From positions 13,023 to 77,022 of the forward strand of contig JAKUTS010000007.1 of the NCBI GenBank assembly GCA_022447925.1: a stretch of DNA of 64,000 bases, in the 5' to 3' direction. Made by a program: the position numbers and the translations under genes. The stretch comes from SAR202 cluster bacterium (GTDB lineage Bacteria; Chloroflexota; Dehalococcoidia; Lucifugimonadales; UBA2962). Under the pieces are notes generated by a model, which saw nothing but the letters and a program-made list of their open reading frames with translations, ran no database searches and was not told where the DNA came from. This document shows positions 28,000 to 31,396 of the stretch, one piece after another (the stretch's first letter is position 1; each line of letters begins with the position of its first letter).

Positions 28000-29337
28000 T
28001 TATCGGCGCCGAAAGTCTTTTGATACTATGGTTAGGACATATCCAACTGCCTTGTCGGCTGCCCGAGAACGTATTGGTCCGAGTTCTCCAGTAAAGTCAT
28101 CTAGTGTTGTTATTATGGTGGGCAACTTCAGATTATGTCTATGAACTAACAATTGATATAATTTCTCTTCTGCCCAAGGGCCTCCTCTTTCTTGACCAAG
28201 GTCATCAAGAATTAGGACGCCAGCATTTCTGATTCTTTCGAAAATCTCATCATATCTAATTGCACTATTTGGTGTGTAGCTACTTCTTAGGTAATCTAGT
28301 AGGTCAGGAACGAAAGCAAAGAAAACATCATCACCTTCCCTAATCCGTTGACTGCCAATGGCAACTGCTAGATGAGTTTTACCAACTCCGGTGGAACCGG
28401 ATAAGGTCAGCCATCCATCAGGATATGAAGCATATGTTTTACTTACTTCCAATGCTAGTTTCAAGCTTGCTTTTTCTTTGGAATTTATACCTGTAGTGGT
28501 TGTTTTATATGAATCTAGAGTCATCCGGTCTTGCAGGTCTTTAGGGATGCTACCTAAACCAAATCCAATATCTGAAGGCTTTAACCTAATAATTTTTGAG
28601 AGGTGCTCAGTTTTTAATCTAGATCGAATGTAAGAATCCAATGAACTAAGTTCTTGTGAAGTTGCTATAACTGTTGGCAATTCTGCATTAAATCTATGAT
28701 TGAGTATTTGCTGCAATTTCTCTAATGCCCAAGGAGTAGGGTATGCGCTACCTAAGTCATCGAGAATCAGCAAGGGAGTATTTCGAACCCGATCGAACAG
28801 CTCACTGTAAGAATATGGTGTGTCAGGTGCGAAGCTACTTCTTAAGTGATCCATCAAATCTGGTACATCTATATAAATTGCAATATGCCCGTTCTGTATG
28901 CATTGGTTTGCAATTGCAGCAGATAAATGGGTTTTTCCGGAACCATGTGGACCAACTAATACTAACCAGCCACGCGGAGACATTGTGTATTCTACAGCTG
29001 CATCTTTCGCAGTTTTAATCAGCGATTGTATATCTGGGACACTAGAAAATTCAGGGACAAAAGATTCGAAATCAAACCTTACTAAATAACCTAAATTACT
29101 GTACCGAATTAATTGAGAATTGTTCTGTTCAAGTAAATTATCTTGCTGGCATGAGCAAATTACAAATCTACCGAAGTCTGGGTGGTCAATTGCAACATCT
29201 TCTGTAAACCAACCTAGATCACTACATCGATCGCAATCGATTTCAACATCATCTTCCTTTTGAGGCTGGATCTCTGATTTAGTATCTTTTGCTGGTGCTT
29301 TGTCCAATTTCTTTAATATGTCGCCGATTTCGTCCAC
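28000..29337 (-). CDS. DnaI/DnaC/IstB-type helicase-loader ATPase with two tandem AAA+ domains and N-terminal Cys motif
   Basis: Walker A GPHGSGKT (about 28930-28953) and GSTGVGKT (about 28375-28398); Walker B LLILDDLG and VLILDDLG; C-x2-C...C-x-C near N-terminus. Track start is 29376; GTG at 29337 with AGGAGGAAAA is a better start. Confidence 0.92.
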   Translation of the reverse strand: MDEIGDILKKLDKAPAKDTKSEIQPQKEDDVEIDCDRCSDLGWFTEDVAIDHPDFGRFVICSCQQDNLLEQNNSQLIRYSNLGYLVRFDFESFVPEFSSVPDIQSLIKTAKDAAVEYTMSPRGWLVLVGPHGSGKTHLSAAIANQCIQNGHIAIYIDVPDLMDHLRSSFAPDTPYSYSELFDRVRNTPLLILDDLGSAYPTPWALEKLQQILNHRFNAELPTVIATSQELSSLDSYIRSRLKTEHLSKIIRLKPSDIGFGLGSIPKDLQDRMTLDSYKTTTTGINSKEKASLKLALEVSKTYASYPDGWLTLSGSTGVGKTHLAVAIGSQRIREGDDVFFAFVPDLLDYLRSSYTPNSAIRYDEIFERIRNAGVLILDDLGQERGGPWAEEKLYQLLVHRHNLKLPTIITTLDDFTGELGPIRSRAADKAVGYVLTIVSKDFRRR

Positions 29338-29986
29338 TTTTCCTCCTGTCAGGGTTATTAGTCTGGGATCGCCCATTTACCTGCCAATTTTCTAGTATGC
29401 TTTCAATATACCGCCATGACCTAGCGTTATTCTTAACTGCCTCGCGAAAAGCCTCATTAATCCAATCATCAGGATAACGTTGCTGCGCGTATTTTAACTC
29501 TTCTGTTATTAGAGGGTTAAGTGTGCCAATATTATTTTCGTATAGACTAAAAATATTCTCGGTAGGATTGTTGTTTTCAATTACATCTAACTTACTGTCA
29601 TGGTCTTCATTGATTATGCGGTCAATATTAGATTTTGCATCGAAAGTGTTTAGTACTAGTATTCGAGCTTCTCGATCTGTTTTTAAATAAGCACGTCGTA
29701 TTAACCCATTGTTGATGCATTTATCTATCGAATCCTGAATTTTTTCCTTGGATCCGATTACTGTTTGCAGCACCTGGTCAGAAACTAACAAATTTTCCTC
29801 TACCCACTTAGGACTCCCTTTTCTTATATGAATTAAGTTAAGGAACCTCAAAATACACACAAGGTCATTGTAATCCCGGATTTGTTCTAGCATTGGGCCG
29901 AGTAAAGGACTGGGAACTGGAGTAAAATGCACTCCTTTAGGAAACCCTGCCCCGTAATTTTTACTATGCATAGACTCTGCTTTCAT
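29279..29986 (-). CDS. DnaD-domain replication protein
   Basis: NIFSLYENNIGTLNPLITEELKYAQQRYPDDWINEAFREAVKNNARSWRYIESILENW; YxxxIxxxW motif of DnaD domains. Confidence 0.85.
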   Translation of the reverse strand: MKAESMHSKNYGAGFPKGVHFTPVPSPLLGPMLEQIRDYNDLVCILRFLNLIHIRKGSPKWVEENLLVSDQVLQTVIGSKEKIQDSIDKCINNGLIRRAYLKTDREARILVLNTFDAKSNIDRIINEDHDSKLDVIENNNPTENIFSLYENNIGTLNPLITEELKYAQQRYPDDWINEAFREAVKNNARSWRYIESILENWQVNGRSQTNNPDRRKSGRNRRHIKEIGQSTSKRY

Positions 29987-30019: not shown

Positions 30020-31396
30020 CTATACCAATTCTCTAGATCTGGATCTTCTTTCTAAACTCTCAAATTTAACTAATTCTTTGCGGAAGTACAGTGGTACAGC
30101 ACCTGTAGGACCGTTTCTATGTTTTGCCACAATTATTTCTGCAATGTTTTCAGGATATGGTCTTGAGGGCTCTTTTCGCTCCCAGTCCTCTTTAGTTGTA
30201 TAGTGATCTTCTCTATAAATAAAAGCTACCACATCTGCATCCTGTTCAATGCTTCCACTTTCACGTAGGTCTGACAGTATTGGTCTATGTGAAGGACGAT
30301 GCTCCGGCGCACGGCTTAACTGAGATAGAGCCAAAACTGGCACATTTAGATCTCTAGCTAATGCCTTTAATGATCTCGATATGTCGCCCAATTCTGTTGT
30401 TCGATTGTCAGATCTGCGGTTTGAATCGCCCATTAATTGCATGTAGTCCACTATGACTAAATCTAATCCTCTTTCAGCTTGTAGACGTCTGGCTTTACCT
30501 CGAATTTCGACTGTACCCTGTATAGGCGTATCGTCCATGTATATTGGTAGTTCAGATAGGACTCCAATGCCGTCTAGCACACGCCTTTCCTCAGATTCGC
30601 TTAAAACACCCAAACGTAGCCTGTGGCTATCGACACCGGCTTCTGCCGAAAGTAATCTGTTTCCAATTTGCTCAGCACTCATTTCCAGGCTAAATATACC
30701 TGTTCGTATTTGTTTTTCAGCAGCATTCCTCGCAATGTTAAAAGCCAGACTGCTTTTGCCTAAACTAGGCCGAGCGGCTAAAACTATCAAGTCAGATCTT
30801 GCAAGGCCATTACCGAGTATTTTATCCAGGTCAGGGAAACCTGTTTGTATTGGAGTAAGGTTTGCATCATCAAAATCGATGCTTGCGGTTTGTTCCATGT
30901 ATTCGTCAAGAATAGTACGAATATGCTGGAAATCACCTGTTGCTCTATTAGTTCGAATCCCGTAAAGCAACGTTTCAGCATCTCGTAGTGAAACATCACT
31001 ATCAGAAGATCCTTCATATCCAATAGTGGCTATATCGCCGGCAACAGAGATTAATTGACGCATTACTGCAGATGTTTGTACTATCCTTGCATAATGTTCT
31101 ATATGAACTGAAGTGGGAACTGTTCTTACTATTTGCCCAAGATAATTAGAGCCTCCTACATCGTCTAGCAATTCTTTCAGCGATAATTCATGAGCTACTG
31201 TCACCTGGTTTATTGCCTCTCCTCTGTCAAAAAGAGTCATGAAGGATTCATAACATGACCGGGTCCTGGATAAGTAGAAATCATCTGGTCTTAGAAAAGA
31301 GGATATTTGGGTTAGAGCAGTCGGATCAATAAGGACAGCTCCTATTACAGCTTCCTCGGCATCCGCGTCATGTGGCAGCAATCTCTCCGCGTACAA
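30020..31396 (-). CDS. dnaB: Replicative DNA helicase
   Basis: LPHDADAEEAVIGAVLIDP; LIVLAARPSLGKSSLAFNIA; VIVDYMQLM; SQLSRAPEHR. Confidence 0.97.
   Translation of the reverse strand: MYAERLLPHDADAEEAVIGAVLIDPTALTQISSFLRPDDFYLSRTRSCYESFMTLFDRGEAINQVTVAHELSLKELLDDVGGSNYLGQIVRTVPTSVHIEHYARIVQTSAVMRQLISVAGDIATIGYEGSSDSDVSLRDAETLLYGIRTNRATGDFQHIRTILDEYMEQTASIDFDDANLTPIQTGFPDLDKILGNGLARSDLIVLAARPSLGKSSLAFNIARNAAEKQIRTGIFSLEMSAEQIGNRLLSAEAGVDSHRLRLGVLSESEERRVLDGIGVLSELPIYMDDTPIQGTVEIRGKARRLQAERGLDLVIVDYMQLMGDSNRRSDNRTTELGDISRSLKALARDLNVPVLALSQLSRAPEHRPSHRPILSDLRESGSIEQDADVVAFIYREDHYTTKEDWERKEPSRPYPENIAEIIVAKHRNGPTGAVPLYFRKELVKFESLERRSRSRELV

Follow-up and report, generated by a model that had tools for sequence, protein, structure and literature searches.

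A putative tandem AAA+ helicase loader in the Chloroflexota class Dehalococcoidia

The loader locus and its domain architecture

The window, a 64,000-nucleotide stretch of contig JAKUTS010000007.1 (assembly GCA_022447925.1) from a SAR202 cluster bacterium, contains on its minus strand a gene block in the order rplI-dnaB-dnaD-loader. The first gene of this conserved block is rplI, which encodes ribosomal protein L9 (31412-32095, minus strand; assigned by reading the sequence and from synteny). It is followed by the gene for the replicative helicase DnaB (30020-31396, minus strand; TIGR00665, 488 bits), the presumed client of the loader, and by a gene for a DnaD-domain protein (29279-29986, minus strand; PF07261, E 7e-14, and TIGR01446, as well as synteny) that is likely a co-loader. 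The coding sequence of the loader overlaps the 3′ end of this upstream DnaD-domain gene by 59 nt. The loader open reading frame extends over 28000-29376 on the minus strand and encodes 458 amino acids if read from the ATG at 29376. The GTG at 29337 is the better start, because a Shine-Dalgarno sequence read as AGGAGG (29342-29347, minus strand) lies 4 nt upstream of it and homologs begin there, aligned at M-E-x-L-G-D-I-L. The coding sequence (28000-29337, minus strand) would then specify a protein of 445 residues.

Profile matches divide this protein into a zinc-type N-terminal domain of the DnaI/PRK08116 kind and two complete AAA+ modules, referred to here as D1 and D2. The initial annotation described two DnaI/DnaC/IstB-like ATPase modules and proposed a profile search for them, and the search found both: the Pfam model IstB_IS21 matches two stretches of the protein (E 1.1e-28 overall), and PRK08116, which is the best NCBIfam model, matches it twice, with one match spanning residues 37-254. 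Both AAA+ folds are also predicted by AlphaFold, mostly with pLDDT >90 and a mean of 85.8 for the whole model, but with a pTM of 0.58; the individual domains are confident and the D1-D2 arrangement is not. Canonical DnaC and DnaI consist of one helicase-binding domain and one AAA+ domain (PMC8213410), whereas the DnaC/DnaI-type AAA+ domain is present here in two copies per chain.

The N-terminal domain (29053-29244, minus strand), a putative zinc and DnaB binder, contains C48, C51, H65, C74, and C76 and lies within a PRK08116 match. The C-x2-C...C-x-C pattern recognized in the initial annotation is present as C48-x2-C51...C74-x-C76, and across 20 relatives C51, C74, and C76 do not vary. D1 comprises residues 112-268 (28573-29043, minus strand) and D2 comprises residues 286-457 (28006-28521, minus strand). 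The linker between them (residues 269-285; 28522-28572, minus strand), taken with the residues after it, is a repeat of the F-E-S-F linker ahead of D1. On the same strand, D1 contains the Walker A motif GPHGSGKT (28930-28953), the Walker B motif LLILDDLG (28750-28773), the arginine finger R253 (28618-28620; placed by alignment and conservation), and R179, F182, T214, and W216 (28729-28842), which are equivalent to the ssDNA contacts K143, F146, S177, and Y179 of DnaC in an alignment to the DnaC structure 6qel (PMC8213410). The corresponding features of D2, also on the minus strand, are the Walker A motif GSTGVGKT (28375-28398), the Walker B motif VLILDDLG (28195-28218), the ssDNA-contact equivalents R364, Y367, position 399, and W401 (28174-28287; from conservation), the arginine finger R438 (28063-28065), and a Sensor-II-like D-F-R (28009-28017). 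All four Walker motifs are as first reported. When the two halves are aligned, D1 and D2 are 42% identical across 153 residues with no gap (E 1e-42), which bears out the proposal of an internal duplication, albeit an ancient and class-wide one.

The gene order rplI-dnaB-dnaD-loader is conserved phylum-wide for tandem and single-AAA+ forms of the loader alike. Among loci with enough upstream sequence, with some genomes represented in both of two collections, dnaD lies upstream of the loader at 131 of 140 tandem loci and 22 of 26 single-AAA+ loci, and dnaB lies upstream at 93 of 95 and 17 of 20, respectively. At loci L050, L051, L052, L054, L057, L066, and L092 the loader directly follows dnaB with no DnaD-domain open reading frame detected between them, and the presumed co-loader was possibly lost or relocated there.

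In most bacteria the helicase is loaded by DciA, an ATP-independent loader that is the usual alternative. A search of class genomes detected no DciA in 117 of 118 Dehalococcoidia genomes, the window genome included; the sole match (G095:C84:80-340) lies at a contig end and may represent contamination or genuine coexistence. In a search of the window genome, no IstB/DnaC-family match was found besides the loader, except in its DnaA. Because of the dnaB/DnaD operon, the absence of DciA, the family matches, and the lack of a second loader in the genome, we strongly infer from homology and gene order that the chromosomal loader of the DnaB helicase is the product of this gene, in agreement with the identity first assigned to it. 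The generic Pfam name IstB_IS21 would suit an IstB-like transposition ATPase, and the protein could in principle be a redundant paralog and not the main replicative loader. Such a role is highly improbable, with the best NCBIfam models being PRK08116/DnaI-type and not IstB, an IstB equivalog score of 123.5 bits that falls below the cut-off of 200, a conserved chromosomal locus beside dnaB, and no transposase recognized among the open reading frames neighboring the loader, where IstB would need a linked istA. Second loader-like matches do occur alongside the tandem loader in three genomes (G109:C1:424538-424975, G169:C5:22895-23353, and G193:C8:193793-194287); they fall in open reading frames of 217-346 aa that are possibly prophage genes.

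Distribution and ancestry of the tandem form

The tandem loader occurs as a single intact open reading frame in 4 of 4 congeners, with 84-94% identity. Among named records, 'SAR202 cluster bacterium OSU_TB35' (94%) and SAR202-II-3 (85%) come closest. Nearly all of the 60 genomes searched within the window's order have the tandem form. A sample of 128 genomes from the class gave a loader match in 125 and, by our own count from the match table of this sample, 117 of these encode the tandem form in one open reading frame, 6 encode a single-AAA+ form (5 in family code f57 and 1 in f68), and in the remaining 2 the gene is split or truncated at a contig end. Complete genomes of 1.4-2.1 Mb from family code f52 also carry the tandem loader. 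The window genome is a draft in 44 contigs, which could suggest a recent fusion or an assembly artifact of two neighboring single-AAA+ genes, but the same architecture in the congeners and in 117 of 125 class genomes, along with the rejection of a genus-level duplication described below, makes this explanation vanishingly improbable and excludes the assembly fusion that the initial annotation had raised as a concern. Across the genomes sampled, the tandem architecture is standard for the class Dehalococcoidia.

Outside the class, tandem loaders are found in other Chloroflexota families, including named Thermoflexia, Thermoflexales, and Anaerolineae records, and further Chloroflexota families have single-AAA+ loaders. 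Our systematic survey covered the Chloroflexota; the scope beyond this phylum is a scan of named genomes and its best 80 loci, which are all from Chloroflexota bar one probably misnamed record. That record (L151, JAJPGT010000047.1), titled 'Proteobacteria bacterium', encodes a tandem loader of the usual Chloroflexota kind, preceded by rplI and dnaB, and is probably a misnamed bin. Five single-AAA+ loaders (L084, L085, L082, L091, and L093, from genomes G532, G377, G344, G370, and G580) have long N-terminal extensions of up to ~400 residues ahead of the zinc domain. The extension in L084 is Q/P-rich and looks disordered, and in L084 and L085 it is not a DnaD fusion, with dnaD there being a separate open reading frame just upstream.

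Domestication of dna[CI] has been recorded in Chloroflexi (Brezellec et al. 2016; PMC5109545), and the main text of that paper contains no word beginning with 'duplicat'. We found no published description of a tandem helicase loader in searches of the open-access literature. The initial annotation had allowed that tandem loaders might already be described as standard in the lineage: they are standard by sequence and apparently undescribed in the literature searched.

A tree of the individual AAA+ domains places D1 of the class and of several other families in one clade (100/100), and D2 of the window's order in a separate clade (100/97); a third clade (100/99) holds the majority of single-AAA+ loaders from other families. 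Constraining D1 and D2 of the window's genus to group together, as for a genus-level duplication, was rejected (AU p=0.001), and constraining D1 and D2 of the order together was borderline rejected (p 0.0485). Because a genus-level origin is rejected, the duplication is, as judged from this tree, ancient and class-wide and not local, and a recent duplication is ruled out. The domain phylogeny suggested in the initial annotation as a means of dating the event thus sets a limit on its age and leaves one or two older duplications within the Chloroflexota, since neither a constraint uniting all D1 domains (p 0.385) nor one imposing a separate duplication on the Thermoflexia/Anaerolineae-like families (p 0.358) is rejected.

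A phage source of the tandem form was considered and discarded, since 80 of 80 viral relatives have a single AAA+ domain. In phage and plasmid records that span most of the query, the stretches of ~260 codons are single-AAA+ proteins that match the N-terminal domain and one AAA+ domain.

D1 has been lost repeatedly, with D2 as the domain that remains each time. Single-AAA+ loaders inside the order (f15, f26, and f18) nest with the order's D2 domains in the tree. In one of them, L049, a D2-type linker directly follows the N-terminal domain (RYSNL and then QPEMLQRMTFESF; compare ...IEPxMLxRMTFETF ahead of D2). The in-order single-AAA+ loaders, which nest with D2 and carry this linker after the N-terminal domain, are in-frame losses of D1, plausibly through recombination between the duplicated linkers. 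D1 is lost in several families, the domain left matches D2 in f15, f18, f26, f57, and f68, and within the class, genes truncated at contig ends aside, a loader reduced to D1 was never encountered.

Conservation of ATPase and coupling residues in D1 and D2

Residues were counted in 120 distinct tandem proteins, with DnaC numbering taken from the literature (PMC8213410) and from an alignment to 6qel. A gap-free phmmer alignment sets DnaC Arg216 opposite R253, a register that we disfavored because even single-AAA+ loaders would then be without an arginine finger. Instead, we used the register R-x-x-S-R, in which the last Arg is the finger (Arg220) and the Arg four residues before it is the coupler (Arg216), because this is the spacing at which the two arginines occur in single-AAA+ relatives.

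The Walker A lysine is present in 119/120 D1 and 120/120 D2 domains, and the finger arginine in 114/120 and 116/120. Among the ssDNA-contact equivalents, K143 is R or K in 119/120 D1 and 117/120 D2 domains, F146 is F or Y in 118/120 and 116/120, S177 is S or T in 119/120 and 113/120, and Y179 is W in 120/120 of both. Where the initial annotation saw a finger-like R-S-R stretch, the last Arg, which is the finger itself, is conserved, but the first occurs in only 72/120 D1 and 14/120 D2 domains. Other residues are more variable: the catalytic Walker B acid is lost from D1 in 30/120 proteins (29 Gly, 1 Ser) and from D2 in 7/120, the Sensor-I Asn is present in 39/120 D1 and 11/120 D2 domains, the coupler Arg is present in 59/120 and 53/120, and a Sensor II of the D-Y-R type was identified in 16/120 and 73/120. 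Both domains keep the residues that bind ATP, contact ssDNA, and reach the neighboring subunit, while those for hydrolysis and coupling decay unequally, and D1 and D2 seem to divide the jobs of the motor between them. In DnaC, losing any one of Walker A, Walker B, Sensor I, the finger, or Sensor II is reported to abolish ATPase activity, which requires Sensor-I Asn203 as well as Sensor II; Arg216, invariant in DnaC/I proteins, engages Sensor I and couples ssDNA binding to hydrolysis (PMC8213410).

Read across the sequences, the loss of Sensor I, the coupler, and the catalytic acid is graded across lineages. Tandem proteins of other classes (n=20) have a near-canonical D1, with Sensor I, coupler, and acid present in 19, 20, and 20 proteins, and a D2 with 9, 16, and 19. 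The same residues are present in 5, 11, and 13 D1 domains and 1, 8, and 13 D2 domains in the rest of the class (n=13), and in 2, 4, and 12 D1 domains and 0, 0, and 28 D2 domains in the window's order (n=29). For single-AAA+ loaders (n=26, including those within the order), 22 have both the Sensor-I Asn and the coupler, and all 26 have the acid. The window protein has an intact Walker A, Walker B, and finger in D1 and D2, as expected if both copies kept their catalytic residues. That claim of the initial annotation fails for the Sensor-I Asn and the arginine coupler, which are missing from both domains, and for Sensor II, which is found only in D2; it also does not extend to relatives, most of which in the order have Gly in place of the D1 acid (LDG). 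The window's genus has LDD at this position, by retention or reversal.

In four of the 120 proteins (L146, L153, L155, and L113) the Walker B acid is replaced in both domains; in L146, L153, and L155 the D2 finger is missing too and D2 contains an insertion. All four are possibly ATP-binding-only loaders. Proteins with a catalytically dead D1 keep the D2 finger in 26 of 26 cases and keep the D1 finger too. With the fingers of both domains persisting in these proteins, a comparison of Walker B loss with finger loss does not separate an alternating ring from stacked rings.

The erosion of D1 could mean that it is a regulatory or recruitment module outside the ATPase ring, acting through the DnaD-like protein, through DnaA, or by autoinhibition. 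Consistent with such a role are the loss of D1 from several families, the 30/120 proteins without its Walker B acid, the absence of Sensor II from D1 in 104/120, and the overlap of the DnaD-like gene with the loader gene. However, the Walker A Lys (119/120), finger (114/120), and Trp (120/120) of D1 exceed the needs of a mere docking domain, and D1 persists at loci with no adjacent dnaD (L051, L054, and L057). We consider a D1 that stands outside the ring unlikely.

A possible covalent loader dimer and its relation to known loaders

The reading that we put forward, with our confidence evenly divided, is that the chromosomal loader is a covalent, asymmetric dimer that arose by tandem duplication and has D2 as its core motor. 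Within this reading we infer the loader function, the ring geometry, the 3:6 stoichiometry, and the control that replaces the coupling switch. An ancestral single-AAA+ loader of the DnaI type, encoded in the rplI-dnaB-dnaD-loader block, would have undergone tandem duplication of its linker-plus-AAA+ unit to give a zinc N-domain followed by D1 and D2. The protein would most likely act as a covalent loader dimer, with the zinc N-domain docking onto the C-terminal ring of DnaB and with D1 and D2 adjacent in a cracked AAA+ spiral that grips ssDNA. Three chains could fill the six AAA+ positions of the canonical DnaB6-loader6 complex. The different loading stoichiometry or asymmetric ATP use suggested in the initial annotation is thus plausible and takes a more definite shape in this reading. 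D2, which keeps the acid and Sensor II and survives when D1 is deleted, would be the indispensable motor, and D1 would bind ATP, touch ssDNA, and provide an arginine finger while hydrolyzing little or no ATP across a good part of the order. The DnaC-type switch from ssDNA binding to hydrolysis, formed by the coupler and Sensor I, is dismantled in both domains of the order. With this switch lost from both, release would have to be timed in another way, possibly by communication between D1 and D2 or by the DnaD-like partner encoded in the overlapping gene.

A crystal structure of DnaB-DnaI contains one helicase hexamer and three loader dimers, with the two monomers of a dimer touching the helicase differently (PMC3791466). 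A fused dimer fits well with these three dimers per ring (PMC3791466). Several findings weigh against parts of the reading: the packing of D1 against D2 comes from a model with a pTM of only 0.58, three chains would offer only three N-domains for six DnaB subunits, the D2 finger persists where D1 is dead, and a few proteins (4/120) have both Walker B acids replaced. The fullest form of the proposal is that three N-D1-D2 chains build a six-position spiral in which a motor D2 alternates with a low- or non-hydrolyzing D1, the DnaC coupling switch having been removed and release following some other signal in a large share of the Dehalococcoidia; we advance it tentatively, as a possibility that is more doubtful than the covalent dimer itself.

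Six chains per DnaB hexamer could instead form a two-tiered loader like p97 or NSF, with a stacked D1 ring for assembly and a D2 ring as the motor. The single zinc N-domain of each chain would then give one for every DnaB subunit of the hexamer, the finger and Walker A persist in D1 as well as in D2, and the top Foldseek matches to the model are p97-type tandem AAA+ proteins. These matches superpose poorly (TM 0.3-0.4, rmsd 12-19 angstrom, from a model with a pTM of 0.58), whereas single loader domains superpose at TMt 0.64-0.75 (DnaI 2w58, DnaC 3ec2, and DnaB-bound DnaC 6qem). Furthermore, the DnaC/DnaI ssDNA-contact residues in both domains fit a single strand track, although they are compatible with two tiers too. 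A stacked arrangement strikes us as improbable.

Loading of the helicase commits a cell to replication, and how many loader chains take part and how ATP is used around the DnaB ring is still debated. A class whose members joined two loader motors in one chain and afterward allowed one of them to degenerate is a natural experiment on hydrolyzing versus binding-only sites, and the covalent pair makes a trimer-of-dimers geometry directly testable. Some lineages have abandoned the arginine-coupler switch that has been called invariant in DnaC/DnaI, yet retain the ssDNA contacts.

Among known systems, p97/Cdc48 similarly has two AAA+ modules per chain with a possible division of labor, but it belongs to a different AAA+ clade and the domain arrangement predicted here superposes poorly on it (model pTM 0.58). 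The Walker A, finger, and ssDNA-contact positions align with those of E. coli DnaC, which differs in having one AAA+ domain and a different N-domain, and in the Sensor-I Asn, Sensor II, and coupler, which are missing or confined to one domain in the tandem loader. DnaI and PRK08116 share with the tandem loader the zinc-type C-x2-C ... C-x-C N-domain, the F-x-S-F linker, and the DnaC/DnaI AAA+ fold, and in the case of DnaI also the location of the gene near dnaB and a DnaD-domain partner; DnaI has one AAA+ domain per chain, in contrast to the two here that have diverged in their catalytic residues. The single-AAA+ loaders of Chloroflexota have the same locus and the same N-domain and are the presumed ancestral form, but their one AAA+ domain has a full Walker B and, in 22 of 26 proteins (those that lost D1 included), both the Sensor-I Asn and the coupler.
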